NCBI GenBank assembly: GCA_017527675.1
Contig: JAFXPU010000021.1
Location: 1 to 49,889 of the forward strand
Source of the DNA: Bacilli bacterium
GTDB taxonomy: Bacteria; Bacillota_I; Bacilli_A; RF39; UBA660
DNA: 49,889 nucleotides
Direction: 5' to 3'
Shown: in pieces, positions 12,582-39,232 of the stretch
Layout: each line of letters begins with the position of its first letter
Position numbering within the stretch: the first letter of the stretch is position 1
Position numbers and translations under genes: made by a program
Notes under the pieces: generated by a model
Database searches by the model: none
Seen by the model: the letters and a program-made list of their open reading frames with translations, nothing else
What the model was told of the DNA's origin: nothing

Positions 12582-12598
12582 TTCAATCACCAAAAATT

Positions 12599-13805: not shown

Positions 13806-14705
13806 ATGAAAAACGTAAAAACATATGAAAATTTTAAAAAATTAATAGGAGGATCTAAGTTAGTATTTGCTGGTGCAGGACTTGGTGCAACATTATTAAT
13901 GACTGGATGCTCAGGATGTTCTGTTGAACCAGAACCAGCTTCAGAAGTAGTTGTAGATGTAACTTCTGAAACACCATCTCAAATAGAGATTATTGAAACT
14001 AGCGAACAACCAAGTGAAGAGATTAGTGAAGAACCTGTAGTTGAAGAAGCTGAACTACCAGAATTACCAATTTTAGATGAAAATGGTAATGTATATGTAC
14101 CAAATGAAATAACATTAGATCAAGTATATGCTAAAATCGATAAAATGGTTGAAGAAAATGAATTTGAAAGCGACTTAGAAAGAGATAAAGCTATAGCTGT
14201 TATGATTTATATTAACAGTCCATATATTAGTAAGGATACATTTATGGCTGTAAAAGAGGATTATTTAGGTAATATGTTAGATGGTGATATTCTTACTCTT
14301 AGTCAAGTTTATTTTGATAAACATGCAATTCCACTTAATTACTTATTTTTAGATGACAAACAGGCTGATGCTGTTTCACAAATTATGAATTATCGTCGTC
14401 AAAATAAGGATTCAGAGGAATATTATAATTTGGCTTTAGATTATATTTTATTTTCATCAGAAAATATTGGTTATAATCCAATAAATTATTATTTTTATGG
14501 AACTGATCCTAAACGTGTTTTAATAAAAGAATTAAAAGCAAATCTAGATATTGATACTATTGATGCTATTTGTGGAGGTTGCAAAGAAGTGGATGGTTCT
14601 ATAGAAAAGACGTTTGCTGATGGTAAATCCTATACTTTTGAAGGTATTAGTAATTATTTTGAAAATTATCAAAGTTCTCATATTGAAAAAAGTTTAACTA
14701 AGTAA
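13806..14705 (+). CDS. Putative lipoprotein at the head of the secretion locus
   Basis: I do not recognise the family of this 299-residue protein. The N-terminus has a hydrophobic stretch (residues 18-33) ending LLMTGC, a lipobox with the modified cysteine at 35, so membrane anchoring on the outer face is likely. Residues 40-85 are an acidic, proline-rich linker (VEPEPASE, EEISEEPVVEEAE). A helical domain of about 200 residues follows, including DLERDKAIAVMIYINSPYIS. The long polar N-region before the hydrophobic core is unusual for a lipoprotein. It has its own strong promoter and precedes the adhesin-like gene by 21 bases, so the two are probably co-expressed. Confidence 0.65.
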   Translation: MKNVKTYENFKKLIGGSKLVFAGAGLGATLLMTGCSGCSVEPEPASEVVVDVTSETPSQIEIIETSEQPSEEISEEPVVEEAELPELPILDENGNVYVPNEITLDQVYAKIDKMVEENEFESDLERDKAIAVMIYINSPYISKDTFMAVKEDYLGNMLDGDILTLSQVYFDKHAIPLNYLFLDDKQADAVSQIMNYRRQNKDSEEYYNLALDYILFSSENIGYNPINYYFYGTDPKRVLIKELKANLDIDTIDAICGGCKEVDGSIEKTFADGKSYTFEGISNYFENYQSSHIEKSLTK

Positions 14706-14726: not shown

Positions 14727-17700
14727 ATGAAAAAAAATATATTTACCACATTATTATTTTTAACCGTTTTGTTTATAATTAATAATTGTAATGCAGCTAA
14801 CACAGATTATATTATTGGTAGTGGAGAAAAAATAAATACAGCAACTATTACTAGTACTGGAACAACAAAAACATTTAAAGATACCTATAAGGTCGACAAT
14901 GGATATATTGTTGAAGATAATCAATACTATCAAATAAAATTAAATGGTCAAGATGCATTATGCCTTGACCATCAAAAACCATATGGTTTTGGAGATTTTT
15001 ATTATGCTCCTATGACTGTAAATAATTTGGCAGTTAGAAAGATATATTCGTATGCAACTAAAGGCCCAGATGAAAACTTTTTTGCTCAAATTCTGCTATG
15101 GTATCTTTCAGATCAAGGCTTGCTATATGAAGATAATCTTGTAAAGGAACATGGCTCTATAAATTATTTTAATACTATTCGTAACAATATTGCTGATTTC
15201 ACAGCATATTATATGCTTGTTGCAAATGGTAGTTTTGATCAATATGCAAAATATCTTGATGAGGATTATAAATGTTTAAATATTGATAATGAAAAATTAT
15301 ATAAAGTATGTGTAAATATAAAACAAAAGCCAAGTTTTTATGATAAAACTTACTATCTTTTAAATGAACTGGTACCAAATGCTACAAGTGTTTTTAATGC
15401 AAATAAAAGTCAAATTTTGACTAAGATTTCAGATATTGAAGAAGGCAATGCTACAAGTGTTTATTTATATAAACCAAGTAATGCTCAAAAACAAAATATA
15501 ATTTCTGCTAATCCAAATGATTTAAATGAAACATGTGTAAGTGTTCTTCGTGCATATTCTTTAAAAGAAAATGGTAACGTTAAAAGTTCAGCAGAAGCTG
15601 TAAAATATTTAAAAGAGCATTTTCCAACTCAATTTAATGAAAAAGATGGTACGTGTGGGCAACCTAATGATGCATGCTATGTTAAAATAGTACAACCAAC
15701 TTCATATAGATTTCCTGCACGTTTAGCTAACCGTAAAGCGGGAATAGGTGCACGTGCTTCTTATACAGGAACAATTAAGAAAATAATTGGTACTTATTAT
15801 GCTTGCGCTGGTAAAACTTGTACTACTGAAGAACCAAAGAAAGAAGATTATAAGACATGTAAATTGTTTAAAGAAGCAATATCTGATCCAAAAAATGTTA
15901 TATGTACAGATGATGGTAATAAAATAACTTACTTGAAATGTAAACCTGGTGGTGGCGGTGGTGGATCTAAAACATGTAAGGAATTGCTTCCATCATATTC
16001 TGGTGTACAAACAAATAAAAATTTTGAAGAATTTAAGAAAAAAATAACTGATCCTGAAAAAGCTACTCATTTAGCTGATGGTACTATTTCATGTGAACCT
16101 TGCAAACCTGATGTTAAAGTACCACCTGCAATTTGTGATGTTCAAGGAAAAGTTCGTTCAAACTTTACTTTAAGTGATGCTGTTGATGAGTATGGCAATC
16201 GTAATGAAACATGCTATCATAATAATATATCATATCAAATAGATGGTAAACCAGCTAGGGCATCAATAGATGAAAATTTTTCTGAGTCACCTTATTGTGA
16301 CGTTTATTGTTGGGAATCTGTATTTGTAGATTTACCAAACTCACCAAGCGCAATGGGAAATATTATTGCTGGTTCATTATTCTATTGGGGAATTAATCAA
16401 CCAGAACATATTTTTGCAGAATTGCAAACTAGGCGTGTTTGTTGGACAAAACCTGACTATGATACATTTACAGATGTTTGGAATACAAATGAAAATGCAA
16501 TATCTCAAGCATATGCTGATTATATGGCAGAGGTCGAATATAATAAACAAGGCGATAGTGATGTAACGGTAGATAACGATAAATGTTGCATTGGTAAAGA
16601 GGTACCACCTGAACCTGATACATGGAGTGATCCTGTAAATAGTTGCGGTAGCGGTGATTTTGCTTGTGCCTGCAATAACGGATGCGGATGTGATGGAAAT
16701 AATAATGCACCTTGTTCATATATTGATGGTGCTTGGAGACATAAAAATAGTGGTAGAGCAGGATATTGTGATGGTACAGAAGGTAAAACATATAAATTAC
16801 CATCAAAAGATTATACAATTCCTGGTACAACTATAAAAGGTACATCTAATAGTAAAACATCTGGTTGTACAACAAGTAAACCAAGTGCAGATGATTTAAA
16901 AGATACTAAAGAAGAAGAAAAAAGAAAGGCTGCTGTTGCGAGAAAAGTTGGAGATCGATATACTTTAAGAGAACAACTTCTTGTTTGCCAAAGTAAGAAA
17001 AATATCAATGAATCAAGTATGTATGATTATTCTAAAGCATCAATTAAATTTACAACAGATACTAAAACTAATTTAGGATTATCTAGATATGGCGTTGGGG
17101 ATGCTAATTTAGTTGGTGATGTTAAACCAGGTACTGTAAAAGTTGAAACAAATTCGGCTAAAGATGCAACTGCCAAAACATTCAATTGCTCCGGTATAAA
17201 TGGTGAAATTGGTAATTCAACTGATCCAGATAACAGTGTAAGTAATATTTGTCAAGGACAAACATATATAAGCGTAGATAACTACGAAACTAAAGGTTAT
17301 GAATGGGATTATAGTGGCGTGTATGCATTTTATTATCCAGACGATTATTTATTCTTATCTAAAAAAATAACTGCTACAACAACAAATGATGTTAATGATC
17401 AATTTAAACCAACTGGATACGAAAAAGAAAAGAATTTATATTATATCGAAGGATATGGATTCCCAGTTGGATTTACAACAACTGAAGGATATTTCTTTGC
17501 AAAAGTTGAAATATCTGGATTAGGACATAAAGGACATTTTGATGATATATTAAATCAAACTGACTCTAAAGAAAAATATGGTTATAATTTCAAAGATGGT
17601 TATAGTTGCCCATATTATGTTTATAATCCATTATATCAACATCAATGTCATTATGAATGTGATCCAAATACTATGAAATGTAAAAAAACTGCTGATTCAC

Positions 17701-18224
17701 CAGCTGATTGTTGCGATCCGCAAACTACTACTTGTGATAAAGGTAAATTAGCTGTTGTATATCGTTTAATTGATATGGCCGAAGGAAACACTAAGAAAAT
17801 TTTCCCAAGTATTGATGGTGATGGTAGAAATCCTGGTAGCAACTGGGCATCTTTTATCAACTTGAAGGGAACAGCATATAAAAATATAACAACAACAGGA
17901 GTTATTTATGATAATACACCAATGTACACAATTGAATTAACTCCAACAAATATTGGTAAGATTAGAAAAGATAACACTGAATTAAGGAAAAATAATAAGG
18001 ATCCATATACAAGTTATACAGATGCTAAAGATAAGTTAAAAATTACTTGTGATGAATATCAAGATGAAACTAAGTCTTGCGTATCAAATTATATTACAAC
18101 ATTAATGAATGGAAATTATAAAGTAATAACTGGTGGTTCATTTAAAATAACTAATGAATCTCAAAGACTTAAAGCATTAAGAAACTATAAAACTTGTTAT
18201 GATAATTCTAATCCAAATTGTTAA
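14727..18224 (+). CDS. Large secreted cysteine-rich protein with an N-terminal thioester (adhesin) domain
   Basis: The 1165-residue protein begins with a signal peptide ending near residue 24 (NCNAAN). Residues 60-130 resemble thioester domains of Gram-positive adhesins: ALCLDHQKP carries the C-x-D motif (Cys79), followed by a kIYSYA segment and FAQILLWYLSDQG, where Gln121 fits the (T)Q-x-x-x-W motif. In that family the Cys and Gln side chains form an internal thioester that bonds covalently to host targets. The rest has over 40 cysteines, including a dense cluster (CACNNGCGC, near residue 649) and two related K-x-C-rich repeats around 380-460 joined by a six-glycine linker. There is no LPXTG motif or C-terminal membrane anchor, so retention must depend on partners, perhaps the pilus made downstream. 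A terminator follows. Confidence 0.7.
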   Translation: MKKNIFTTLLFLTVLFIINNCNAANTDYIIGSGEKINTATITSTGTTKTFKDTYKVDNGYIVEDNQYYQIKLNGQDALCLDHQKPYGFGDFYYAPMTVNNLAVRKIYSYATKGPDENFFAQILLWYLSDQGLLYEDNLVKEHGSINYFNTIRNNIADFTAYYMLVANGSFDQYAKYLDEDYKCLNIDNEKLYKVCVNIKQKPSFYDKTYYLLNELVPNATSVFNANKSQILTKISDIEEGNATSVYLYKPSNAQKQNIISANPNDLNETCVSVLRAYSLKENGNVKSSAEAVKYLKEHFPTQFNEKDGTCGQPNDACYVKIVQPTSYRFPARLANRKAGIGARASYTGTIKKIIGTYYACAGKTCTTEEPKKEDYKTCKLFKEAISDPKNVICTDDGNKITYLKCKPGGGGGGSKTCKELLPSYSGVQTNKNFEEFKKKITDPEKATHLADGTISCEPCKPDVKVPPAICDVQGKVRSNFTLSDAVDEYGNRNETCYHNNISYQIDGKPARASIDENFSESPYCDVYCWESVFVDLPNSPSAMGNIIAGSLFYWGINQPEHIFAELQTRRVCWTKPDYDTFTDVWNTNENAISQAYADYMAEVEYNKQGDSDVTVDNDKCCIGKEVPPEPDTWSDPVNSCGSGDFACACNNGCGCDGNNNAPCSYIDGAWRHKNSGRAGYCDGTEGKTYKLPSKDYTIPGTTIKGTSNSKTSGCTTSKPSADDLKDTKEEEKRKAAVARKVGDRYTLREQLLVCQSKKNINESSMYDYSKASIKFTTDTKTNLGLSRYGVGDANLVGDVKPGTVKVETNSAKDATAKTFNCSGINGEIGNSTDPDNSVSNICQGQTYISVDNYETKGYEWDYSGVYAFYYPDDYLFLSKKITATTTNDVNDQFKPTGYEKEKNLYYIEGYGFPVGFTTTEGYFFAKVEISGLGHKGHFDDILNQTDSKEKYGYNFKDGYSCPYYVYNPLYQHQCHYECDPNTMKCKKTADSPADCCDPQTTTCDKGKLAVVYRLIDMAEGNTKKIFPSIDGDGRNPGSNWASFINLKGTAYKNITTTGVIYDNTPMYTIELTPTNIGKIRKDNTELRKNNKDPYTSYTDAKDKLKITCDEYQDETKSCVSNYITTLMNGNYKVITGGSFKITNESQRLKALRNYKTCYDNSNPNC

Positions 18225-18225
18225 T

Positions 18226-18260
18226 AAAAAAGTGAAGAATTTTTCTTCACTTTTTTTTGT
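18226..18260 (+). terminator. Strong terminator after the thioester-protein gene
   Basis: A 14-base stem (18226-18239 with 18243-18256), including AGTGAAGAA and TTCTTCACT, has a TTT loop and a long T run. It separates the adhesin unit from the pilus genes. Confidence 0.85.
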
Positions 18261-18292: not shown

Positions 18293-18321
18293 TTGAAAAA
18301 AAGGGAAAAAAAATATATAAT
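18293..18321 (+). promoter_or_regulatory. Promoter of the Tad pilus operon
   Basis: TTGAAA (18293-18298) and a perfect TATAAT (18316-18321) are 17 bases apart, followed by AAGGAGG and the TTG start at 18375. A second TTGACA at 18261 with a poorer AATACT at 18285 could be an additional start. Confidence 0.65.
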
Positions 18322-18374: not shown

Positions 18375-18785
18375 TTGAAAGAGTCATTTTGGGGTGTAAT
18401 GATTTTGTTACTTGGTGTTGTATCTATTTTCTTAATTTATTTCTTTCAAAATGTTACAAACACGAGTGAACATAATTATGAATTATTAAAGGAAACAACT
18501 GAAGCGGCTATGTATGATTCCCTAGACTTAGCAGCGTATCGTAAAAATGGAATAATTAAAATTGATACTGAAAGATTTTTAGAGAGTTTTATCAGAAGAT
18601 TTGCTCAAAATGCTAGTTTATCTCATACATATCACATTGATATTTATGATGTAAATGAAATACCACCAAAAGTTAGTTTAAAACTTAGGGTAGGTGGTAG
18701 TGAAACATCTACGACTTTAACAGGAGAAAAAATACAATATAACATCACAAATCAAATTGATGCTATATTAGAAACAAAATATTAG
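18375..18785 (+). CDS. Small TadE-like pseudopilin or membrane-anchored pilus component
   Basis: The 136-residue product starts at TTG 18375, chosen from AAAGGAGG at 18361-18368. It opens M-K-E-S-F-W-G followed by one hydrophobic helix (residues 8-26) and an extracellular domain of about 105 residues. The short leader ending in glycine resembles those of the major pilin candidate and two pseudopilin-like proteins encoded downstream (M-K/R-E-A/S-x-G), so all may be handled by one prepilin peptidase. The gene is the first of the Tad operon, 18 bases ahead of the cpaB-like gene. It could be a TadE/F-type minor pilin; the family is not certain. Confidence 0.55.
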   Translation: MKESFWGVMILLLGVVSIFLIYFFQNVTNTSEHNYELLKETTEAAMYDSLDLAAYRKNGIIKIDTERFLESFIRRFAQNASLSHTYHIDIYDVNEIPPKVSLKLRVGGSETSTTLTGEKIQYNITNQIDAILETKY

Positions 18786-18803: not shown

Positions 18804-19640
18804 ATGAATAATTTTATGATGTCAATGAAAAGATTCTTTTCAAACAAAAATGTTGTTACAATAATTGGTGTAGTTATTGTGCTTGCTTTATTATATTGGG
18901 AATATAATAGCAAAATTACGAAAGCTGTAAATCCAACTAGGGTTCCAGTTGCAGCTTCAGATTTATTACCACAACAAGAAATTACAAATACTGATGTTGT
19001 ATGGATTGACGTACCAAGTGTTGCTATAGATAAAGATGCTTTAACAAATTCAAGTTCTATCGTTGGTAAATATGTTGGTGTTAATTCTATGATTCCAAAA
19101 GGAAGTATGTTCTATAAAAGTGCAATTGTAGAAAAAAGTGATTTACCAGGCAACTGGTTAACTGAGTTAAAGGAAGACGAAATTCCAGCATACATTAAAG
19201 TTGATATGGTAACAACTTATAGTAACTCTATTGAACCTGATGATTATGTTGATGTATGGATGAAAGCTGAAGATGAAGAAGGCTTAGTAATGTTTGGTAA
19301 ACTTATTGAAAATATCAAAATTGTTGCTGTTAAAGATTCAAGTGGACAAGATGTATTCAAAAGTTCAAATGAAGTTGGTACTCCAGCATTCTTATACTAT
19401 GGTCTAGAATCAGATTACTTTGTAATGTTAATGAAAGCTCCATACATTGATGGCGTTGAATTAGCAATAATTCCACATGGTGGTGCTGTTCCTAAAATGG
19501 GTGATGTAGAAGTTGCCAGTGATTACTTAAGAGACTATATTGATGCTAGTACATTAGCAATCCCTGAAAATGAAGATAACGGTATCGACGTAACTGATAA
19601 AGATAAAAAAGATAAAGAAGACAAAAAGGAAAATAATTAA
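18804..19640 (+). CDS. cpaB: CpaB/RcpC-like pilus assembly protein with SAF domain
   Basis: The 278-residue protein has one N-terminal membrane helix (residues 18-32), then an SAF domain beginning VPVAASDLLPQQEITNTDVV and continuing through VGKYVGVNSMIPKGSMF, followed by an RcpC-like segment (PAYIKVDMVTT and YVDVWMKAEDE). The C-terminal 25 residues are almost all Asp, Lys and Glu. CpaB/RcpC proteins belong to Tad pilus systems and sit between membrane and cell surface; SAF domains bind carbohydrate. It directly precedes the ATPase gene with a one-base overlap of stop and start, the expected Tad order. Confidence 0.82.
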   Translation: MNNFMMSMKRFFSNKNVVTIIGVVIVLALLYWEYNSKITKAVNPTRVPVAASDLLPQQEITNTDVVWIDVPSVAIDKDALTNSSSIVGKYVGVNSMIPKGSMFYKSAIVEKSDLPGNWLTELKEDEIPAYIKVDMVTTYSNSIEPDDYVDVWMKAEDEEGLVMFGKLIENIKIVAVKDSSGQDVFKSSNEVGTPAFLYYGLESDYFVMLMKAPYIDGVELAIIPHGGAVPKMGDVEVASDYLRDYIDASTLAIPENEDNGIDVTDKDKKDKEDKKENN

Positions 19641-20863
19641 TGGAAGAAAATATTTTTGATCAAGTCGACTTTGGCCCATTACAAGAATATCTTGATAATG
19701 ATGATGTTACCGATATTTCTTATAGTAATGGTGGTCAACTTTGGTTAAAAACTTTATCACATGGTATTTTTAGAATTGAAAATCCGTTAGTTAATAATAT
19801 TTTCATGGAAAAGTTAGCCTTTCAATGTGCTAACGTTGTTGGTCACAGTTTTAACGCTGCCCATCCATTTCTAGACTCAGAATCTGCCGAGTTACGTATG
19901 AACTTCGTACATGATTCAATAGCTCGTAATGGTATTGCATGCGTTATTCGTAAAACTCCAGCAAAAATTAGACTTGAAAAGGGAAAATTATTAGAAGAAA
20001 AATATGTTACAGAAGATATTCATGATTTACTTATGAAATGCGTTGAAGGACACTGTAACATAATAGTTTGTGGAGAAACTGGTTCTGGTAAAACTGAGTT
20101 TGTTAAATATCTAGCTTCTCATACAAAAGAAAATGAAAAAATAATTACTATCGAGGATACATTGGAACTTCACCTTGATAGAATTTATCCTACACGTGAT
20201 ATAGTAGCAATGAAAACAAATAACATTGCATCATATTCTGATGTTCTTGTTACCTGCATGCGTCAGAACCCAAAATGGATATTACTATCAGAGGTTCGTA
20301 GTGCTGAGGCTGTTATGGCTGTACGTAACTCTATATCATCTGGACACTACATTTTATCAACAATACATGCAGATAAAGCAACTTCTATTCCTAACCGTAT
20401 GTACTCACTACTTGAAACAAATCAAGATATAGCTCAGTTCTTGAAGTCTATATATCGTTATATTCAAATTGGTGTATATATAAGAGGTTATCAAGATAAA
20501 GAAACTCATCGTTTCATTCGTGAAATTGCTGAAGTTTGTGAATTCTATGTAACTGAAAATAATGATGCAAAATATAATATTTTATATCGTAAAACACCAG
20601 ATGGTAAGGTAACAATGCGTAATCCAAGTTCTTATTTACTTGATTATTTGGAAGCACAAGGCGTTGAATTACCAGAACATTTAAAGAATATTGCTAATAG
20701 TGAAGAGGCATATGAACCTGGCGTTGATGCAATTGAAGAAATGCAAAATCAAAAGTCGGAATTAGAAATTGCCTTTGAAGAGGAAAATAATAAAGAAGAA
20801 AATGCTGATAATAATAGTACTAGTGCAAGTACTAATAATAGTCAGCAAATAATATTTGAATAG
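19640..20863 (+). CDS. cpaF: CpaF/TadA-type secretion ATPase
   Basis: The 407-residue cytoplasmic ATPase powers pilus extrusion. It shows an N-terminal domain with DNDDVTDISYSNGGQLWL, Walker A GETGSGKT (residues 145-152), the Asp box IITIEDTLELHL (near 168), Walker B-like PKWILLSEVRSAEA (211-224; families usually read GEVRG, here SEVRS) and the His box STIHADKA (240-247). These place it in the TadA/VirB11/GspE superfamily, TadA branch. The last 45 residues are an acidic, Asn/Ser-rich tail. Platform genes tadB and tadC follow, completing the core motor. The locus has no separate VirB11, so this ATPase might also serve the T4SS half. Confidence 0.92.
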   Translation: MEENIFDQVDFGPLQEYLDNDDVTDISYSNGGQLWLKTLSHGIFRIENPLVNNIFMEKLAFQCANVVGHSFNAAHPFLDSESAELRMNFVHDSIARNGIACVIRKTPAKIRLEKGKLLEEKYVTEDIHDLLMKCVEGHCNIIVCGETGSGKTEFVKYLASHTKENEKIITIEDTLELHLDRIYPTRDIVAMKTNNIASYSDVLVTCMRQNPKWILLSEVRSAEAVMAVRNSISSGHYILSTIHADKATSIPNRMYSLLETNQDIAQFLKSIYRYIQIGVYIRGYQDKETHRFIREIAEVCEFYVTENNDAKYNILYRKTPDGKVTMRNPSSYLLDYLEAQGVELPEHLKNIANSEEAYEPGVDAIEEMQNQKSELEIAFEEENNKEENADNNSTSASTNNSQQIIFE

Positions 20864-20872
20864 GAGGTAAAT

Positions 20873-21778
20873 ATGGGTGTAGCTTTAGTATTTATAATTG
20901 TTACGTTAATAATTATATTTATATTTATTTATCGTAGTGCTAATGGTGAAAACGTATATAAATATGTTTCAGATAAAACAAGTTTTATATATGAAAAAGT
21001 AGCTCCATATTCATTTAAAACAATACGTGAAAAAGTTAAGGAGTTAGGCCAAGAATATACAACTAGACAATATATTATTGAGATAGTTGGCTTTGCAACT
21101 ATAGCAGCAGTTATAACTTATTTATATTTTTATAATCTATTAATTTCAGTTATTTATGCATTAGCTGCTGTAGCAGCTATTCCATATTTAACTTACTTAA
21201 GATGTAAAAGAATTTATAGTGAATTTATATTTGAACAAGTACAAGTATATACAACGAATACTATAATGGAATTTGCAACAACACAAAGTTTTGTTAAAGC
21301 GTTGGAAGGTGTATATGAATCAGGTGTACTTGAAGATCCAGTAAAATCAGATGTTAAAGTTATGATTGATATGGCTTATGAAAATGGTACGATTGATCAA
21401 TCTTTATCATTTATGGATGCTAAATATGATTTCTATATGATTAAGAATATGCATCAATTGTTCTTACAAATTACTAATGAAGGTGCTCAAGATACTGCAG
21501 AGTCACTTGAAAACATGTCACAAGATATTGATATGCTTGTTGAAGGTGTATATCGTGACCGTATCGATCGTGCATCATTCCACAAAAAGTTCTTGCAATT
21601 TGGTATAATTTTGTATTTTATGGTTATGTTAGTTCAATTCTTATTAGGATCAGAAAGATATATGGAAATGCTAAAGATTTGGTATATTCAATTATTACTT
21701 CACGGCATTGTTCTTTTAAATACATACTTCTTGCTTAAAGGTGAGAAATATTATAATGAGAATGTGGGGGCTGAGTAA
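20873..21778 (+). CDS. tadB: TadB-like inner membrane platform protein
   Basis: The 301-residue protein belongs by context and shape to the GspF/TadB platform family. It has a first membrane helix (residues 2-20), a central pair (66-102), a cytoplasmic helical domain with the typical FVKALEGVYESGVLEDP and NEGAQDTAESLENM segments, then two C-terminal helices (240-290). Platform proteins sit over the ATPase and feed pilin subunits into the fibre. It lies between cpaF and a second platform gene, the normal Tad layout, two bases from the latter. Sequence identity to well-studied TadB looks low. Confidence 0.82.
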   Translation: MGVALVFIIVTLIIIFIFIYRSANGENVYKYVSDKTSFIYEKVAPYSFKTIREKVKELGQEYTTRQYIIEIVGFATIAAVITYLYFYNLLISVIYALAAVAAIPYLTYLRCKRIYSEFIFEQVQVYTTNTIMEFATTQSFVKALEGVYESGVLEDPVKSDVKVMIDMAYENGTIDQSLSFMDAKYDFYMIKNMHQLFLQITNEGAQDTAESLENMSQDIDMLVEGVYRDRIDRASFHKKFLQFGIILYFMVMLVQFLLGSERYMEMLKIWYIQLLLHGIVLLNTYFLLKGEKYYNENVGAE

Positions 21779-21780
21779 TA

Positions 21781-22566
21781 ATGATATATATAATTATAGG
21801 TGTTATCTTAATATTCGTATTGAACTATAATCGTGTAATTGATACAAATAAATTTGTTCAAGACACTGAACCATATTTTAGATTGTTAATGGAAGATGAT
21901 TATGAATTCTTACTTAACATAAAATATCCAGGTCGTGATTTGGATATTGGTGCATTATTTGGTCAACGTGTAAGAAATGGATTACTTACAATAATCGTTG
22001 TAATATTCTTTTTCTTAAATAAGTTATCATTTATGTACATATTAATTGCTTTTGTAGCTGGTTATTTAGTATTTAAATCAGGTTACAATAGTTTAAAAAA
22101 TTATTATAAAGCAAATTTACATTATATAAATCAAATGCTTCCATACTACTTAAAGAGTTTGGAAATCTTGGTTCAACACTATACTGTTCCAGTAGCATTA
22201 TCAAGATCAATTGAAAGTGCTCCAGAAGTATTTAGACCGGGATTAAGAAGAATAGTTGCACGTATTGATGCCGGTGATTCTTCTATTCAACCATATGTGG
22301 ATTTTGCTAATGAGTATCCAGTTCGTGATTCTATGCGTATGATGCGTCTTTTGTATCGTTTAGGTTTAGGATCTCAACAAGATAAACATGAACAAGTTAT
22401 GATGTTCTCTCGTACTGTTTCAGCTTTACAAAATAAAGCTCGTGAACAAAAATATAAAGAACGTCTTGAAAAAATGGAAAGTATGACATTAACAATGTTA
22501 ATTTGTACTGGTGGTGGTATCATGGGACTTATGATGCTATCAATGATGATGATGATGAATTTCTAA
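21781..22566 (+). CDS. tadC: TadC-like inner membrane platform protein
   Basis: The 261-residue protein has an N-terminal helix (1-16), a helical pair (about 66-100), a cytoplasmic domain including LPYYLKSLEILVQHYTVP-type residues and SIESAPEVFRPGLRRIV, and a C-terminal hydrophobic helix rich in methionine (MGLMMLSMMMMMNF). This is the arrangement of TadC platform subunits, which pair with TadB. The run of six ATG codons at the 3' end is a local ATG microrepeat. A new promoter lies just downstream, so the tad core operon may end here despite no clear terminator. Confidence 0.78.
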   Translation: MIYIIIGVILIFVLNYNRVIDTNKFVQDTEPYFRLLMEDDYEFLLNIKYPGRDLDIGALFGQRVRNGLLTIIVVIFFFLNKLSFMYILIAFVAGYLVFKSGYNSLKNYYKANLHYINQMLPYYLKSLEILVQHYTVPVALSRSIESAPEVFRPGLRRIVARIDAGDSSIQPYVDFANEYPVRDSMRMMRLLYRLGLGSQQDKHEQVMMFSRTVSALQNKAREQKYKERLEKMESMTLTMLICTGGGIMGLMMLSMMMMMNF

Positions 22567-23022: not shown

Positions 23023-23538
23023 ATGAGAGAAAGTATAGGAACGTCATTTTTGTTAAATTTTATAGTTATTTTTATAGTTTTTATCATGGCGTTTCTTGCT
23101 GCTACTCTAAGTTATTACAAGGCCTATAAAGTAAATAATGCTATTTTGCATTCAATTGAACAATTTGAAGGATACAATTCTTTCGCTAAAGAAGAAATAG
23201 ATGATAGATTAGAATCATTGGGTTATCAGAAAATTCCCGTAGATTGTCCTAAAACTCGTTTTGCTAAAGGAAGCGATGTTAAAGGTGTTTTAATGGGCAA
23301 TGGTGGCGATGGCTCAGAGGGTTATTGTATTTATGTTTACTTCAATGAGAATGCAAAACCAAAAGCTGGTGGTGGTAAATCCACAACAGATATTTACTAC
23401 AGTTTTGGTGTTGTAAGTTACATGAGAATGGAAATACCAATTTTAGGTAAAGTAATTAAAATGCCAGTATATTCTAAGACTTATAATATTTACTATTTTA
23501 CCGGGTCTGCAGTAGATCCTAGTAAATATCAAGCATAA
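23023..23538 (+). CDS. Pseudopilin-like membrane-anchored protein A
   Basis: The 171-residue protein opens MRESIG, then a hydrophobic helix (LLNFIVIFIVFIMAFLAATL) and SYYKAYKVNNAILHSIEQF. The exposed domain has two cysteines and the phrase YMRMEIPILGKVIKMPVYSKT. The neighbour at 23597 has the same plan (SYSKAYKIKDRIIYTIEKYDG and TFDIPLIGGLLQFPVSGET), so they are paralogues. The leader, single helix and setting suggest TadE/TadF-like minor pilins that sit at the base or tip of the fibre. No named family is claimed. Confidence 0.58.
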   Translation: MRESIGTSFLLNFIVIFIVFIMAFLAATLSYYKAYKVNNAILHSIEQFEGYNSFAKEEIDDRLESLGYQKIPVDCPKTRFAKGSDVKGVLMGNGGDGSEGYCIYVYFNENAKPKAGGGKSTTDIYYSFGVVSYMRMEIPILGKVIKMPVYSKTYNIYYFTGSAVDPSKYQA

Positions 23539-23596
23539 AAAAAATATATTTTATATTTTTTTTAATGATTTATAAATTAGTTAATGAGGTGATTTT

Positions 23597-24067
23597 ATGC
23601 GTGAGGCTGTTGGTAGTGCCTTTATTGTTAATTTAATACTTATATTCATAGGGGTTATTTCTGCCTTATTAATTGGATCTATAAGTTATTCAAAAGCATA
23701 TAAAATTAAAGATAGAATTATATATACAATTGAAAAATATGATGGCTGGAGTGATGCCACAAAGAATGAAATTGATAAGCAAATTAATGCTATTGGTTAT
23801 AAATTAAATGATGGTAATAGCTCTAAATGCCCAAGTATTTTATCAAGAAAATATGGTAACTATGATTCAAAAAAATTAGTTCATGGTGCAAATTTAGGCG
23901 TTAATCAATACAATTATTGTGTTTATGAAAATGATTATGAATCAGCTCCAGGTAAGTATTATACAGTTATAACATTTATGACATTTGATATTCCATTAAT
24001 TGGTGGATTATTACAATTCCCTGTTAGTGGTGAAACTTCAGTAATCTATGAAGTTATTGATAATTAG
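23597..24067 (+). CDS. Pseudopilin-like membrane-anchored protein B
   Basis: The 156-residue protein opens MREAVG, followed by one hydrophobic helix and SYSKAYKIKDRI. It is a diverged paralogue of the preceding gene: both share the leader, a YxKAYK turn after the helix, an x-I-x-YD/EG motif and a C-terminal IPxxGxxxxxPV pattern. Two cysteines (KCPS and NYCVY) are kept near those in protein A. An A/T-only hairpin at 23537-23565 separates the two genes and may act as a partial terminator. TGAGGTGATTTT precedes the ATG. Likely role: minor pilin. Confidence 0.56.
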   Translation: MREAVGSAFIVNLILIFIGVISALLIGSISYSKAYKIKDRIIYTIEKYDGWSDATKNEIDKQINAIGYKLNDGNSSKCPSILSRKYGNYDSKKLVHGANLGVNQYNYCVYENDYESAPGKYYTVITFMTFDIPLIGGLLQFPVSGETSVIYEVIDN

Positions 24068-25202: not shown

Positions 25203-25682
25203 ATGAGAAAAATAATTATATGTTTATGTTTAGTAATGCTAATGGTATTTGCATTTAGTCCAACAATTGTTCATGCAGATCCTCATACTAAGGGTGGTAC
25301 GGAAGTAAAAGTTAATGGTGAAGATAATGAAGTACCAGAATATTTAGAAAATCAGGATGTTGTTTCTTGTGGTAATTTAAGTAATATCCCCGATTATATA
25401 CCATTTATTACTAGTCTTACAATTACTATATTAACAATTATATCTATGGGTATGTTAGTTGTAATGGGAACTATTGATTTATTTAAAGGAATTAACTCAG
25501 GTAAGCCAGATGAAATGAAAAAATGTCAGAAAGCCTTCTATAGTAGAATTGGATCAGCTGTATTTTTATTCTTTATAGTTGCTTTAACAAAATTATTAGT
25601 TAGTTTCTTTTTGAGTATGAGTGGTGGCTCAAATAATATTATTGATTGTATAGGTTGCTTTATAAATAATAGTTGTAGATAG
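25203..25682 (+). CDS. VirB2-like pilin or channel protein 1
   Basis: The 159-residue protein has a signal peptide cut near VHA-DP (residue 26) and two hydrophobic helices (about 67-92 and 112-136) separated by a charged loop, the plan of VirB2/TrbC proteins. The first helix ends GTIDLFKGI. A VSCGNL motif lies before the helices and DCIGCFINNSC after them. The same pattern, C-G, I-D-L-x-K-x-(I/V), a K/Q/F-rich loop and D-C-x-x-C-F, recurs in the proteins encoded at 25692 and 27426, and in part at 27951. VirB2 proteins form the T4SS pilus; that role here is inferred from topology and neighbours. Confidence 0.62.
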   Translation: MRKIIICLCLVMLMVFAFSPTIVHADPHTKGGTEVKVNGEDNEVPEYLENQDVVSCGNLSNIPDYIPFITSLTITILTIISMGMLVVMGTIDLFKGINSGKPDEMKKCQKAFYSRIGSAVFLFFIVALTKLLVSFFLSMSGGSNNIIDCIGCFINNSCR

Positions 25683-25691
25683 AGGGAAAAT

Positions 25692-26276
25692 ATGAAAAAT
25701 ATATTAAAATTATTAATAGTTTTTGTTATTGGAATAATTATTTATATTCCTAATGTTAAAGCTGATGATTGCACACTTCATGGTGTAAGCGATTGCACAA
25801 AGTACACTTATGGTTCAGATAAAAAACATTGTGTTGTAAAATCAGTTGGTGAATCAGGAAAAGGTACTTCACCATGTTGTACAACTCAAGATGGATATTG
25901 CAGTGGTAAAACTGCTGTAGATTCTGATGGCTATGAGAATTATGAAGTTAATAGTGATGTTACTTGTGGTAATGGTTTAACATTTAATAAATCTATTGCT
26001 AATGTTGTTTATTATTTTGTTTTAGCATTTCAAATATTTGGACCAGTTGCTCTGATTATTTGGGGTATGATTGATTTATTTAAAGGAGTAGTTTCAAATA
26101 AAGATGATAAAATAAAAGAAGGACAAGCAACATTTGTTAAAAGATTAATAACAGCTTTAATTATGTTTTTAGTTATAACTATTGTTAGATTCCTGATTAA
26201 TATATTATCAACTGATACAATACTAGATTGCTTTAATTGCTTTGTTAACGGAGCAAGAAGTTGTAGTAAGCAATAG
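25692..26276 (+). CDS. VirB2-like pilin or channel protein 2, with cysteine-rich ectodomain
   Basis: The 194-residue protein has a signal peptide ending VKA-DD (residue 25), then an 80-residue exposed region with nine or so cysteines (including SPCCTTQDGYC). The shared two-helix module follows: VTCGNGLTF, GPVALIIWGMIDLFKGVVSN, a KDDKIKEGQATFVKRL loop, a second helix and DCFNCFVNGARSC. It differs from the first protein mainly by the inserted ectodomain. It starts nine bases after the preceding gene. Disulphide-stabilised, surface-exposed subunits are the likely reading. Confidence 0.62.
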   Translation: MKNILKLLIVFVIGIIIYIPNVKADDCTLHGVSDCTKYTYGSDKKHCVVKSVGESGKGTSPCCTTQDGYCSGKTAVDSDGYENYEVNSDVTCGNGLTFNKSIANVVYYFVLAFQIFGPVALIIWGMIDLFKGVVSNKDDKIKEGQATFVKRLITALIMFLVITIVRFLINILSTDTILDCFNCFVNGARSCSKQ

Positions 26277-26285
26277 GGAGGTTTT

Positions 26286-27350
26286 ATGAACGAGAATAAG
26301 AAATATTATATGATGGGTGGAAGTATAATTGCTGTTATACTTGTGCTTCTATTAAGCATAATGCTACTAAGTTCTTGTAGTAGCAAAGCTAATTATCAAA
26401 AAATAGAGAAAAAATTAATAAAAGCTGCCGAAAAAGCAGTAACCAATGGTGATGTTGTTGTTGTTGAGGGAAGTTCAATGATTGTTACTTCTGATCAATT
26501 AGAAGAGGCTGGCCATTTAAAATCATTAGCTAAAATGAATAAAGATGATTGCTCTGCTACTGTAACAATTATGAATAATGGTGAATCATATAACTATTTA
26601 CCTAATTTGATTTGCACTAATTATCAAACAAAAACATTAAAATCTAAAATAATTGATGATAGTTTGACTACTAAAGATGCTGGCCTATATTATGATAATG
26701 GCGAATATATATTTAAGGGAACAAATCCAAACAATATTGTTTCTTTTGGTGGATCTTTATGGTTTATATTAAAAATTGATGCAAGTGGTAATTTAAAATT
26801 ACTTAATACTGAACAATCAGCTCAATATACTAGTTGGGATTCTAAATTTAATACTGATACTAATGACAGATCTGGTGAAAATGTATATGAGAATAGTGAT
26901 ATACATGAAGTATTGAAAGCTAAATATGATGGCTATAAAATTAACGAGAGAAAGCATTTAATACCATTTGGTGTTTGTATAGGGAAAAGAACACCTGATA
27001 ATATTGCTAAAACAGCTTATGTTGATTGTGGTGAAAAATTAGAAGGACAATATTTAGGATTAATGAGTCCAAGCGATTATGCCTTAGCATCTTATGATCC
27101 TGATTGCGAAAACATTTTATCAGGTAGTTGCACAAATTATAATTATATATATAAGAATATTACATCTGATACATGGACATCAAATGCTATGGCTGATAAT
27201 TCATATGAAGTTATGATTTATAGTCCAGGACGTATTAGAAGAGCTACTGCTAATGAAATGTATTATTACAATTTAGTTGTTTATGTAAGTGGTGATGAAT
27301 TGTATACTGAAGGTGATGGTTCAGTTGATAATCCATACGTTATAAAATAG
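26286..27350 (+). CDS. Surface lipoprotein or minor pilin-like protein
   Basis: The 354-residue protein has an N-terminal membrane segment (residues 11-28) ending LLSSCSS, which could be a lipobox. A helical segment follows (YQKIEKKLIKAAEKAV) with a small domain containing IVTSDQLEEAGHL and two cysteines; this resembles the stem and head of minor pilins in related low-GC bacteria. The C-terminal half (LWFILKIDASGNLKLLN, YENSDIHEVL, LMSPSDYALASYD, ending GDGSVDNPYVIK) looks like a repeated secreted-domain type seen in such pilins. It lies between VirB2-like genes 2 and 3. Function is inferred as adhesion or tip decoration. Confidence 0.5.
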   Translation: MNENKKYYMMGGSIIAVILVLLLSIMLLSSCSSKANYQKIEKKLIKAAEKAVTNGDVVVVEGSSMIVTSDQLEEAGHLKSLAKMNKDDCSATVTIMNNGESYNYLPNLICTNYQTKTLKSKIIDDSLTTKDAGLYYDNGEYIFKGTNPNNIVSFGGSLWFILKIDASGNLKLLNTEQSAQYTSWDSKFNTDTNDRSGENVYENSDIHEVLKAKYDGYKINERKHLIPFGVCIGKRTPDNIAKTAYVDCGEKLEGQYLGLMSPSDYALASYDPDCENILSGSCTNYNYIYKNITSDTWTSNAMADNSYEVMIYSPGRIRRATANEMYYYNLVVYVSGDELYTEGDGSVDNPYVIK

Positions 27351-27371
27351 TGTCAAGTAGTATAAAATTAA

Positions 27372-27400
27372 TTGACATTTTAGATGTTATATAGTATAAT
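27372..27400 (+). promoter_or_regulatory. Perfect consensus promoter of VirB2-like gene 3
   Basis: TTGACA (27372-27377), exactly 17 bases, TATAAT (27395-27400). This is the best promoter in the window and shows that translation begins at ATG 27426 rather than further upstream. Confidence 0.88.
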
Positions 27401-27425
27401 TTTCTTATCGAGGGAGGAATTGTGT

Positions 27426-27821
27426 ATGTTAGAATTATTAAAGTTAAGTAGAGGAGTTACATATACTTGTGGTAGTGGAGAATTAAAATTTGATGGATTA
27501 ATTCCAACAGTTACTTCTACAATTGTATTAATTATTCAAATAGGTGTTCCTGTATTATTAATTATTTTCGGTATGTTTGATTTGGGTAAAGCTGTAATTG
27601 CTCAAAAAGAAGATGAAATTAAAAAAGGACAATCAACTTTCTTCAAAAGACTTATTGCTGCAATTTTAGTATTCTTTGTAGTAACAATTGTTAAATTAGT
27701 AGTAGGTTTTGCTGCTGATAGAACTGATGCTGTTACTTGTATTGATTGCTTTATTAAAGGTAATGCAGATAGTTGCCAATTAAGTAACAATGGTGCACCA
27801 TCAACAGTTATTGGTAGATAA
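27426..27821 (+). CDS. VirB2-like protein 3, candidate major T4SS pilin
   Basis: Starting at ATG 27426 (ribosome site GAGGGAGG at 27410-27417) the product is 131 residues. It has no signal peptide, only the shared module: YTCGSGELKFDG, a helix with PVLLIIFGMFDLGKAV, a QKEDEIKKGQSTFFKRL loop, a second helix and CIDCFIKGNADSC. A longer frame from 27384 is excluded because it would start inside the promoter. Monocistronic transcription from a perfect promoter and a strong terminator downstream parallels the major Tad pilin gene at 22655. I infer that this is the abundant subunit of the VirB2-like set. Confidence 0.66.
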   Translation: MLELLKLSRGVTYTCGSGELKFDGLIPTVTSTIVLIIQIGVPVLLIIFGMFDLGKAVIAQKEDEIKKGQSTFFKRLIAAILVFFVVTIVKLVVGFAADRTDAVTCIDCFIKGNADSCQLSNNGAPSTVIGR

Positions 27822-27841
27822 TAAAATATATGTAAAATAAC

Positions 27842-27872
27842 AAAAAAACTATTTTAATAATAGTTTTTTTTT
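27842..27872 (+). terminator. Terminator of VirB2-like gene 3
   Basis: AAAAAAACTATT (27842-27853) and AATAGTTTTTTT (27859-27870), a 12-base stem with a 5-base loop, run into further T residues. Confidence 0.75.
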
Positions 27873-27950
27873 GGTATAATTATGATAGTATGGAATTTTA
27901 TACATAAAAATATAGGATTGATAATAATTGGGTAAAGGTGGAGAGTATTA

Positions 27951-29282
27951 ATGAATAAAAAAAGATACATTTATATTGCTTTAATATTTGCGTTTACACT
28001 ATTAACATTTAGCAATGTTAAAGCAGTTGATTATGGTTGGATTGAATGTGATGGACATCGCTGGACACCAGAAAGTGATTGCCGTGTTGAAACAACTGAT
28101 GAAAATGGTAATAAAGTCTATAAATTAAAAGATAACGCTACCACTAAACCTGGTCAACTAAAAATAAATTTTGATGCTAACGGTAAGGTAACAGGTGTTG
28201 AAACGGATCCATTTCCAGGTAATGGTGTATGGATTTCTCCTAAAGGCGATGGTGTTTGGGTTAGAGTAAATACTAATAGATTAACTCCTATTGGTGAAAT
28301 TAAAGATTTCTTTAGTTATATAACACAATATGGATTAAAAGATGGTATTGCAAATTTGATTAGAGATTCTATATCAACATTTACCATATATTGCGTGAAT
28401 TTCAGTCCATTAGAACAATATTATCAGGAAACTGGTCATGCACCAAAAACAGTTGTTGCTGAAAAATTAGGAACTGAAATATCACTTTTTGATGCATTAA
28501 GTGGTGGCTTTCAAGCATATGTTTATCATGCATCTGATTTAGATGTTAGAGATAAAAGCGTTGCAGTTGTTAATATTGCTAGCCCTATACACTTGCTGGC
28601 TCATTTTTATGATGCTGAACAATTTTGGGAACAATTTGACTTTTTTAAAGGTGTAGGTATTGCTAACTTTATGTTATCTGGTAGTGGTTTACTTAATCCA
28701 GTTCAAGCAAATGGTGGTTGGACTACTCGCGAGGTATATTATTTTTCGTCAGATTTATCTGATAATGCTGATATTAATACATGTGATGATTTAGACATGT
28801 GGATTGAAAAGTTTAAAAAATATAAAGAAGAATATGGTAATACTAGTACAGAATATAAAGAATTATTTGTTAAAATAAATGAAAAATGTGAAGCTTATTT
28901 AGGTAAAAAACATAAAACTGGTAAATCAGATTGCTTTGAAAAATGTTCTAGCCTACAAGATATTCTTTCAGAAATTGATCCAACGGTTTATGGTGAAACC
29001 AATGAATGTGGCTTTGGCCAAGATATGATTGGATGGCTAATAAGAATTTTTAAAATAATTAGATATATTGTTCCAATTATTGTTATTGTTACAAGTACAA
29101 TCGATTATATTGGAGCTTTAGCATCTGAATCAGATGATGCAATGAAAAAAGCAGGTAGTCGTTTTTCTAAGAGATTATTAATAATGATTATAATTTTCTT
29201 AGTTCCAGCGTTATTACAATTTATCTTTAATATATTTAAAATACCTGGATTAAATAGTAGTAATCCATATTGTTTAAAATAA
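27951..29282 (+). CDS. VirB2-like protein 4 with large extracellular domain
   Basis: The 443-residue protein has a signal peptide ending VKA-VD (residue 26), an ectodomain of about 320 residues, then a C-terminal membrane module: NECGFGQDM, a helix with VPIIVIVTSTIDYIGAL, a SDDAMKKAGSRFSKRL loop, a second helix and a final cysteine (NPYCLK). The module follows the VirB2-like proteins encoded upstream, so this looks like the same domain with a large cap. The ectodomain (GNGVWISPKGDGVWVRV near residue 90) is not one I recognise. Transcription probably restarts here after the terminator at 27842; TGGTATAAT at 27872-27880 is a possible extended -10 box. Confidence 0.58.
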   Translation: MNKKRYIYIALIFAFTLLTFSNVKAVDYGWIECDGHRWTPESDCRVETTDENGNKVYKLKDNATTKPGQLKINFDANGKVTGVETDPFPGNGVWISPKGDGVWVRVNTNRLTPIGEIKDFFSYITQYGLKDGIANLIRDSISTFTIYCVNFSPLEQYYQETGHAPKTVVAEKLGTEISLFDALSGGFQAYVYHASDLDVRDKSVAVVNIASPIHLLAHFYDAEQFWEQFDFFKGVGIANFMLSGSGLLNPVQANGGWTTREVYYFSSDLSDNADINTCDDLDMWIEKFKKYKEEYGNTSTEYKELFVKINEKCEAYLGKKHKTGKSDCFEKCSSLQDILSEIDPTVYGETNECGFGQDMIGWLIRIFKIIRYIVPIIVIVTSTIDYIGALASESDDAMKKAGSRFSKRLLIMIIIFLVPALLQFIFNIFKIPGLNSSNPYCLK

Positions 29283-29298
29283 TTAAAGGGGGATTGTT

Positions 29299-29358
29299 AT
29301 GAAGGGAATTTTATATTACCTTACATATTTAAATAAAAATAAGGAGGTGAACAAATGA
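29299..29358 (+). CDS. 19-codon mini-gene coupled to the VirB6-like gene
   Basis: A short frame opens at ATG 29299 behind AAAGGGGGA (29285-29293), reads MKGILYYLTYLNKNKEVNK and stops at TGA 29356-29358, overlapping the next ATG (29355) as ATGA. The next gene's own AAGGAGG site lies within it. It may be a leader peptide that couples or tunes translation of the large membrane protein. No homologue is known to me. Confidence 0.4.
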   Translation: MKGILYYLTYLNKNKEVNK

Positions 29359-31829: not shown

Positions 31830-31851
31830 AGAATAAAAAGGGTGTGATACT

Positions 31852-32181
31852 ATGGAACAAGATGAAAATTTATATTTAATTCCAGCAAACTCAAAAAGAG
31901 GATTATTATATTTTGGTATGTTTACCTTAAATGATTTAATCCTCTTTGGATCCGGAATTGTGCTTACATTTATACTGTTTTATGTACTACCAGTACAGAA
32001 TATATGGTTTGCAATATTAGCCATAGTTCCTGGTTGTATATGTGGTTTTTTGGTAATCCCTGTACCAAATTACCATAATATTAGGACAGTAATAAAAACG
32101 GCATATGAGTTTTATACTACAAGACAAAGATTTGTATGGAAAGGTTGGTGTGCGAAAGATGGCGAAGATAGCAAAAAGTAA
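31852..32181 (+). CDS. PrgI/VirB3-like T4SS membrane protein
   Basis: The 109-residue protein has two close hydrophobic helices (about residues 27-45 and 50-68) after a short polar N-terminus, then a C-terminal stretch with NIRTVIKTAYEFYTTRQRFVW. PrgI family proteins of Gram-positive conjugation systems have this length and layout and precede VirB4. They are thought to do the job of VirB3, helping VirB4 dock at the membrane. The coding region overlaps the start of the next gene by 23 bases, indicating coupled translation. Confidence 0.75.
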   Translation: MEQDENLYLIPANSKRGLLYFGMFTLNDLILFGSGIVLTFILFYVLPVQNIWFAILAIVPGCICGFLVIPVPNYHNIRTVIKTAYEFYTTRQRFVWKGWCAKDGEDSKK

Positions 32182-32704
32182 ATATACTGTTGATGATGTT
32201 CCTGTTAAGAATATCATGAATGGTGTTATTGTTCTTGATAATAATCAAAAAGTAACTGGTGTTAAAATAATGCCAAGAAATATCTTTATTCTTGATCAAC
32301 AAACACAAAATGCTATTATAGCTAATTTGAAAACAGTTTATAATATGATTGATTATGAATTTTGGATTATTGTTGCTGATAAACCTGTTGATATTAATTC
32401 TTATTTATCACAACTGCAAGTTTTATATACCAATACCGGTGATCCAGTAAGAAGAAAAATGATTAATGAAGATATTGAAAAAGCTAATATGTTTATGAAT
32501 AATAATGTAGTTGATACAGAATATTTCATTTTATTTAAGGAAAAGGATCAAGAATTAATTAATAAAAGAATTCGTAATTTAATAACTAATTTACAAGCTG
32601 CAGGTTTAACTGCATTTCAAACTTCTAATGACGATTTAAGAATGGTTTTAGATAACTTCTTAAATGGTGGTCAAACAACAGAATTCGGGGTGACTATGGT
32701 ATGA
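32159..32704 (+). CDS. VirB4 N-terminal domain encoded as a separate protein
   Basis: Starting at ATG 32159, within the end of the PrgI-like gene, the product has 181 residues. It opens with the phrase DDVPVKNIMNGVIVLDNNQKVTG and continues INFIL-like NIFILDQQTQNAIIANLKTV, as do the first 180 residues of Gram-positive VirB4/TrsE ATPases. It has no Walker motifs. The ATPase part follows in another frame, overlapping by four bases (ATGA, 32701-32704), so a normal VirB4 appears split into two co-translated chains. A longer frame from 32105 has no ribosome site. Whether this is a lineage-wide split or a frameshift is open. Confidence 0.65.
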   Translation: MAKIAKSKYTVDDVPVKNIMNGVIVLDNNQKVTGVKIMPRNIFILDQQTQNAIIANLKTVYNMIDYEFWIIVADKPVDINSYLSQLQVLYTNTGDPVRRKMINEDIEKANMFMNNNVVDTEYFILFKEKDQELINKRIRNLITNLQAAGLTAFQTSNDDLRMVLDNFLNGGQTTEFGVTMV

Positions 32705-34476: not shown

Positions 34477-34497
34477 AAAAAGTAGGAGGTGATATTA

Positions 34498-36603: not shown

Positions 36604-36616
36604 AAATGGTGATAAG

Positions 36617-37300
36617 ATGAAAAAAATATTATTATTACTTACAATTATTTTACTTGTTAGTGGTTGTACTACTAAATATGAAATAAGAATAAAAAATGAT
36701 TCAATTGAAGATACACTTACAATTGATAATTTAATATTTGATGGTTATGATCCTAATGCTGATGATAGCGAAGAATACTACGATTCTAATCGTTTTATAT
36801 ATGATGTTATTACATCAGATGTTTTAGCATTGGATGATACATTGGCTGATAAAAAAGTTTACTATAAAAAAGAAATAAATCAAAATGGTAATAGTTATAA
36901 TCTAAAATTTAATTATGAATATAAATTTGAGGATTTTTCCAAGTCATATGTTATTAATTCATGTTTTGAAAATCGTGATATTAAGATTGTTGATGATAAA
37001 GTATATATTCATTTAAGTGGTCATTTTTATTGTTATTATGATGAACCAATAGATATAGTTATTAAATCAGATAAATATGTAAAAAAATCTAATGGTAAAA
37101 AGAGTGGTTCTGGTTATCATTGGGAAATAAATCAAGATAATTATAATGATATTGATATATTAATAGAAACATCAAATATTTCAAAATCACGTCATTTTAT
37201 TTATTATGCTATTGCTATTATTGCTGGGATAGTTTGTTTATTATTTATTATTCATTTTGTAGGAAAATTATTAGGAAAAGATGATGTAAATAGTATTTAG
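36617..37300 (+). CDS. Lipoprotein with C-terminal membrane helix
   Basis: The 227-residue protein has a classic lipoprotein signal (MKKILLLLTIILLVSGCTTK, Cys17), an exposed domain of about 170 residues with two further cysteines (NSCFEN and FYCYYD) and a hydrophobic C-terminal helix (YYAIAIIAGIVCLLFIIHFV). Being anchored at both ends is uncommon. It starts 13 bases after the M23 gene and ends eight before the next, within the T4SS operon. Its domain family is not one I can name. It may be an outer-face scaffold for the channel. Confidence 0.6.
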   Translation: MKKILLLLTIILLVSGCTTKYEIRIKNDSIEDTLTIDNLIFDGYDPNADDSEEYYDSNRFIYDVITSDVLALDDTLADKKVYYKKEINQNGNSYNLKFNYEYKFEDFSKSYVINSCFENRDIKIVDDKVYIHLSGHFYCYYDEPIDIVIKSDKYVKKSNGKKSGSGYHWEINQDNYNDIDILIETSNISKSRHFIYYAIAIIAGIVCLLFIIHFVGKLLGKDDVNSI

Positions 37301-37308
37301 GAGGCATT

Positions 37309-38733: not shown

Positions 38734-38741
38734 GTGATAAT

Positions 38742-39224: not shown

Positions 39225-39232
39225 GTGGTGCT

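Follow-up and report, generated by a model that had tools for sequence, protein, structure and literature searches.

What does the large, cysteine-rich protein encoded at 14727..18224 (+) of contig JAFXPU010000021.1 from a Bacilli bacterium do, and does it bind its target covalently? The contig was analysed over its whole 49,889 nucleotides (the window) and belongs to a 1.13 Mb low-GC draft genome; the relatives used for comparison come from metagenome assemblies that carry the labels Bacilli, Tenericutes, Mollicutes or Erysipelotrichaceae, one of them Candidatus Faecisoma (Mycoplasmatota in NCBI). Judged from sequence and modelling, the protein very probably carries a thioester domain (TED) on a new scaffold, which is Tad-linked, unanchored and disulfide-rich. 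The preferred reading, with a probability of roughly 65%, is a covalent TED adhesin with a predicted Cys79-Gln256 thioester, most likely acting at a Tad-type pilus machine.

The open reading frame (ORF) has an ATG start and a good Shine-Dalgarno sequence (GGAGG). Its 1165-aa product contains 44 cysteines, 43 of them after the predicted signal peptide, which has no lipobox; a sequence scan revealed neither an LPXTG motif nor a membrane-like segment beyond residue 40. An earlier note on this DNA had described a huge protein with more than 40 cysteines that lacks LPXTG and a membrane tail, which is confirmed. Its proposal of an N-terminal TED on a secreted protein without LPXTG, beside a pilus or secretion locus, is supported by profiles, fold matches and neighbouring genes. 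The features of the gene are listed below, where A3 is the alignment of the window's N-terminal domain (head) with eight ortholog heads.

14727..18224, + strand: gene of the Cys-rich secreted protein with the TED head (ORF of 1165 aa; in relatives, orthologs stand immediately before DUF5411)
14727..14798, + strand: putative signal peptide of signal-peptidase-I type, residues 1-24 (MKKNIFTTLLFLTVLFIINNCNAA), from the sequence and a simple cleavage rule
14796..15518, + strand: TED, residues 24-264, from profiles, AlphaFold model and fold matches
14961..14963, + strand: codon of Cys79, the predicted thioester Cys, in a [YFLA]C-phi-zeta motif of strand C (invariant in A3; strand in the model)
15087..15101, + strand: codons of Gln121-Trp125 (AQILLW), a TQxxPhiW-type motif on the central helix and not the bond Gln (Gln and Trp invariant in A3; helix in the model; motif role from PMC6194298)
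15492..15494, + strand: codon of Gln256, the predicted thioester-forming Gln (VYLYKPSNAQKQNII; invariant in A3, weak leave-window-out profile alignment, VIA-align end point)
16284..16496, + strand: shared middle module (YCxxYCxE...AGxxFxWG), residues ~520-590 (consensus of alignment A8; BLAST matches at 516-629 and 523-583)
17439..18101, + strand: conserved C-terminal module (YR...FP..DG.GR.PG.NW...YTI.LTP..I..IR..N), residues ~905-1125 (alignment A6)

The N-terminal domain (residues ~25-264) very probably has the TED fold, a beta-barrel plus a helical bundle, since profile, reverse-profile, genome-scan and fold evidence converged on TEDs. When the A3 profile was searched against all PDB chain sequences, the sole match at E<=10 was SaTIE-TED (E=7.7e-4), with the Cys and helix motifs in register; the profile of A4, which is A3 without the window, again retrieved SaTIE-TED alone (E=0.033). 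A leave-window-out HMM (hidden Markov model) retrieved the window at E=1.7e-4, behind the members and one other head and above every unrelated ORF, and a second segment of the leave-window-out profile, weak and individually insignificant, placed residues 245-260 on the bond-Gln motif. After the doubtful member L135 was also removed, the window was found at E=0.14, just below a Pfam TED encoded by the same genome. In the reverse direction, an HMM built from 21 Pfam-TED proteins alone gave the ortholog head L113 as the best non-member among 1,780 ORFs (E=1.7e-4), and hhalign of the heads against the Pfam-TEDs reached 91-93% probability. The A3 scan of 386 family genomes revealed four new heads (G160, G010, G333 and G144), all with the Cys, Gln, Trp and downstream Gln; 16 further matches were tested, which comprised 14 Pfam TEDs (PF08341) and the G333 and G144 heads. 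Searches of plasmid and phage collections gave no homolog.

The residue assignment was made by comparison with TEDs of known structure. In characterised TEDs, the central helix carries the TQxxPhiW motif, and the Gln of this motif forms a hydrogen bond with the backbone of the Cys and is not essential; the bond Gln of solved TEDs is located in a later strand, 129-204 residues past the Cys (PMC4450167, PMC6194298). In the window protein, Cys79 was found within C-L-D (L-C-L-D), and Gln121 within A-Q-I-L-L-W together with Trp125 (residues 120-125), in agreement with the motifs given in the earlier note. That note had taken Cys79 and Gln121 as the bond pair; this pair is rejected, and Gln121 is not considered bond-forming, because of the published role of the TQxxPhiW Gln and the pattern in the orthologs. 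The columns of Cys79, Gln121, Trp125 and Gln256 are all invariant in A3. The third, bond-Gln motif is plain in the orthologous heads (GKLYVYESITSSGSYQRFI, GVIYVWESIVTPGNKQQMI, GIVVIWEAACEGGRQRMI and GNLYFYHHKNGGYYQRFL); the corresponding motif of the window, ATSVYLYKPSNAQKQNII, places the bond Gln at 256 with a Cys79-Gln256 spacing of 177, and the same spacing is 172-207 in 21 Pfam-TED proteins from this bacterial family. The predicted bond partner of Cys79 should be Gln256. The residue preceding it is Lys (KQNII), a weak fit to the first phi of phi-Q-zeta-phi-phi.

The 42-residue spacing that had seemed short is the distance from the Cys to the helix motif and not the bond spacing; it is 56 and 62 in the genome's two Pfam TEDs and 46-58 in the other heads. 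The Ala in place of the usual Thr before Gln121 is indeed present in AQILLW; it also occurs in Pfam TEDs of sister genomes (AAQELIW and AAQLLIW). When residues 25-330 were shuffled 20,000 times, the C.D motif followed by [AT]Q...W 25-60 residues on appeared in 6 of the shuffles, and the triple of Cys motif, helix motif and, further downstream, bond-Gln motif, spaced as in TEDs, in 2. Eleven of the 1,780 ORFs from related loci contain the triple, and all of these are TED heads or Pfam TED proteins.

The cysteine counts were also compared. If all cysteines but the thioester Cys are in disulfides, an odd count is expected in mature TED-headed proteins. In a post hoc test with a simple signal-peptide rule, odd counts were found in 15 of 17 TED-headed proteins, a set that includes an unproven second group, versus 16 of 44 other-headed orthologs (Fisher p=4e-4); for the clear TED group alone the figure was 8 of 9 (Fisher p=0.007). 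The odd count is an indirect hint of a thioester, and from the sequence the Cys79-Gln256 pair is probably thioester-competent.

The AlphaFold model covers residues 24-264. In the ten-residue blocks that contain Cys79, the helix motif and Gln256, pLDDT values are 64-82; Cys79 is located in a strand and AQILLW in a helix. Foldseek with this model returned TED chains at all ranks from 1 to 22 (best E=2.8e-3, prob 0.97). VIA-align listed 11 entries, and these too were all TEDs (Z 7.2-8.2, ~100 residues at 2.8-3.7 A, spanning 25-241); a Z of 7-8 alone is indecisive, yet no fold other than TED was among the matches listed. In the VIA-align comparison with CpTIE, position 240, where the model ends, aligns with 274; provided that no gap occurs at this end, Gln256 would coincide with the bond Gln267 of CpTIE.

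Orthologs at the same position share the C-terminal module and the YCxxYCxE module; their N-terminal heads differ. A frequent alternative head, GxRITxVDxxGN...EP...YYGT(xxE), was observed at the N termini of L084, L087, L088, L098, L090, L091, L102, L103 and L130. The C-terminal module (~905-1125) has no Pfam match, and its sole PDB match, 3o6q, is weak (E=0.036); its AlphaFold model has a pLDDT of 46.6 and a pTM of 0.32. A second ortholog set (G007, G012, G026, G033, G034, G036 and G011) is not claimed as TEDs, having no clear helix motif and no significant hhalign match to TEDs. Cys and Q-R-phi-like motifs are nevertheless seen in this set: heads L045, L039, L048, L038 and L042 (G007, G012, G026, G033 and G036) carry C-[FIML]-[DA]-P with QR-phi-phi 252-324 residues later. 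Most of these five heads have an odd Cys count, and they might represent a second TED-like group.

The genes around the adhesin candidate are as follows.

13806..14705, + strand: putative lipoprotein of 299 aa (ORF), 21 bp before the TED gene and probably co-transcribed with it
18226..18256, + strand: strong intrinsic-terminator-like hairpin directly 3' of the TED gene, 14 pairs with a T tail (consensus scan only)
18293..18321, + strand: promoter-like site TTGAAA-17-TATAAT before DUF5411 (consensus scan only)
18375..18785, + strand: DUF5411 protein (PF17424, E=6.4e-51)
18804-19640, + strand: RcpC/CpaB-like protein of the Tad-type core (PF16976, weak, E=2.6e-4)
19640-20863, + strand: CpaF/TadA ATPase of the Tad-type core (PF00437, 5.8e-28)
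20873-22566, + strand: two membrane proteins in the TadB/TadC position (from position and reading of the sequence); the Tad-type core as a whole spans 18804..22566
23023..24067, + strand: two putative prepilin-like proteins with pseudopilin-like N termini (from reading of the sequence; no Pfam match)
25203..41958, + strand: type IV secretion (conjugation-type) genes, with TrbL-like at 29355, VirB4-type at 32701, M23 peptidases at 34489 and 37309, and VirD4 coupling protein at 39724

In 34 of the 40 relatives, 2-31 bp separate the end of the TED gene's ortholog from DUF5411, which follows it. Many genomes have VirD4 in the same locus. It was not found in G001 (clear TED head) or G035, both of which have the Tad module, although these are draft assemblies and the absence is uncertain; in G007, G019, G033 and G036 it is apart from the Tad module. 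The adhesin belongs with the Tad/DUF5411 module, because it stays with this module where VirD4 is elsewhere or not found. A prepilin peptidase is also present in the genome. The genome's two other TED genes (Pfam TED) each have a nearby downstream sortase (G000:C6:40602-43782 and G000:C14:56493-58248; L001, L002, L223 and L224), and each classical TED adhesin with its adjacent sortase is a dedicated pair; the gene at 14727-18224 has no adjacent sortase. Pfam TED adhesins were also observed ~1-27 kb from VirD4 on the same contig (G000:C6, G003:C5, G003:C6, G008:C32, G008:C14, G034:C26 and G037:C22), which suggests that TED adhesins may reside on conjugative elements, as in pLS20.

The 299-aa lipoprotein has no family match, and the related loci contain no homolog of it; in its place, a ~220-aa membrane protein with the C-terminal sequence FDFKV is found in several relatives, and miaA (IPPT) precedes the lipoprotein gene. 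The VirB4-type ATPase seems to be split into overlapping ORFs (32105-32704 and 32701-34476) by a frameshift, a natural split or an assembly error. Elsewhere in the window, two ORFs at 11218-12593 (-) read like an AbiEi/AbiEii-type toxin-antitoxin pair (candidate), and two tandem PGA_cap (capsule synthesis type) paralogs are located at 46654-48977.

According to the preferred reading, the adhesin would be Sec-secreted and disulfide-rich, with an N-terminal TED in which Cys79 and Gln256 would form an internal thioester. The TED would dock on a receptor, an amine of which (probably of a lysine) would attack the thioester, and the adhesin would thus become covalently attached via Gln256. Lacking a sortase signal and co-inherited with the DUF5411-CpaB-CpaF (Tad-type pilus) module, it would most likely act at the Tad machine as a pilus-tip or base-associated head, with the N-terminal domain swapped between species. 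Of this picture, the relation to TEDs, the residue assignment and the genetic linkage are computed results; thioester formation, covalent binding and display on a Tad pilus are inferred. The odds of such Tad-associated display are about even, and carriage by a pilus, as supposed in the earlier note, is to be read with the same reserve. More tentatively, and with odds somewhat short of even, the machine could act as a harpoon: an extendable, possibly retractable Tad-type pilus with linked disulfide-rich adhesins and swappable heads, one of which, the TED, would bond irreversibly without a sortase or a covalent pilus.

Several results weigh against this reading. The earlier note had named the lack of a match to the thioester family as a refutation, and for single sequences this lack is literally true: Pfam TED/TED_2 (PF08341/PF20610) and NCBIfam scans gave no match for the window or any head, and the window head alone was not reached by the TED HMM. 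The condition is nevertheless misleading here, as TEDs are reached with profiles of the ortholog heads. In the 386 family genomes, the window head alone gave only chance-level matches and no close relative. Because TED-like motifs guided the first choice of heads, the profile matches to TEDs count as only partly independent; the reverse search and the scan of the family genomes add support that is independent. The AlphaFold model is weak overall, with a mean pLDDT of 49.5 and a pTM of 0.49, with an unreliable insert at 136-220. Its alignment was trimmed to align Gln256 with the ortholog bond-Gln motifs, and therefore the model is not independent evidence for Gln256 specifically; in the untrimmed alignment (A2), MAFFT misplaced the bond-Gln strand. 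A clear or possible TED head occurs in only about a quarter of the orthologs, which indicates that covalent binding in itself is not the function common to the family. Finally, the terminator-like and promoter-like sites stand between the TED gene and the Tad operon in the window.

Other explanations of the domain were also considered. That it is an unrelated Cys-rich domain with chance motifs, its Cys79 in a disulfide, would fit the missing direct Pfam match, the 44 cysteines and the weak model; this view is largely refuted and very improbable, as the motif triple was rare in the shuffles and absent from every non-TED ORF of the 1,780, and the separate lines of homology and fold evidence all led to TEDs. 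A TED that kept its fold and lost its thioester, as a decayed or repurposed head, would bind its receptor non-covalently. The fast divergence of the head, with no close homolog in the family genomes, the ambiguity between Gln254 and Gln256 in AQKQN, and the other heads in most orthologs are consistent with such a loss; however, all heads of the group, including the four found later, retain the helix motif and the two bond residues, and the odd Cys number implies one Cys outside disulfides, so this is rather improbable.

The place of action may also be different. The TrbL-like, VirB4, M23 and VirD4 genes downstream within 25 kb, together with the precedent of pLS20 p34, a TED protein without sortase signal needed in conjugation (PMC8092201), could point to a mating-pair adhesin of the locus's type IV secretion system instead of a pilus adhesin. 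This is unlikely: the gene adjoins DUF5411-CpaB and not the type IV secretion genes, and VirD4 was not found in G001 (TED head) and G035 and is elsewhere in G007, G019, G033 and G036. A soluble secreted or matrix protein, which would attach through its thioester to its own cell wall or to neighbours with no carrier machine, would account for the lack of an anchor of any kind; the strong positional conservation beside the Tad genes and the conserved C-terminal module, as expected for partner docking, make this improbable as well.

The domain resembles the TEDs of Gram-positive bacteria (PF08341/TED_2, including Cpa, SfbI, CpTIE, SaTIE and BaTIE) in its Cys motif in a strand, its Q..W helix motif, its bond Gln in a late strand and its N-terminal position after the signal peptide, and its model matches TEDs alone. 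It differs in falling below Pfam detection and in the Ala that replaces Thr in the helix motif; a practical rule is that the TEDs of this group escape current Pfam models. The protein also differs in that Cys-rich modules follow the TED, with no SpaA/CnaB stalk and no LPXTG. A family scan found no match to a SpaA/CnaB-type isopeptide stalk in it, whereas SpaA was present in 14 of the 16 other TED-profile matches. A typical thioester-isopeptide-ester (TIE) adhesin was rejected on both the stalk and the LPXTG/sortase tests.

A close parallel is p34 (TIE-pLS20) of Bacillus subtilis plasmid pLS20, a TED protein without sortase signal which is required for conjugation and which shows that a TED adhesin can work for a transfer machine without a sortase (PMC8092201). 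Both proteins have a TED, no sortase signal and a secretion or transfer locus; p34 has Cna-type domains and a conjugation operon, whereas the window protein has DUF5411/Tad genes and a Cys-rich tail. The novelty claimed in the earlier note is reduced by this precedent, although, among the papers examined, none described a TED adhesin of this kind beside Tad-type pilus genes and none joined TEDs with Tad pili. The likeness to the Streptococcus pyogenes pilus tip adhesin Cpa consists of a TED and a pilus. The TED is proven at the pilus tip there; Cpa forms part of a covalent pilus assembled by sortase, whereas the neighbours here are pilus genes of the Tad/type IV-filament type. A DUF5411-CpaF operon of Clostridia, predicted in 2022 by language-model gene embedding (PMC9523054), likewise has DUF5411, CpaF, a PilC/GspF protein and an adhesion/invasion-like protein; it belongs to a different bacterial class, no thioester domain is mentioned, and the big proteins are likened by description only. 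The variable heads on a constant tail provide a testable model for changing adhesion targets in such bacteria. Known covalent TED adhesion comprises sortase-anchored surface proteins, pili and one conjugation operon; a Tad-linked TED, if true, would carry the same chemistry over to a further kind of surface machine and to uncultured reduced-genome Bacilli, many of them from animal guts.

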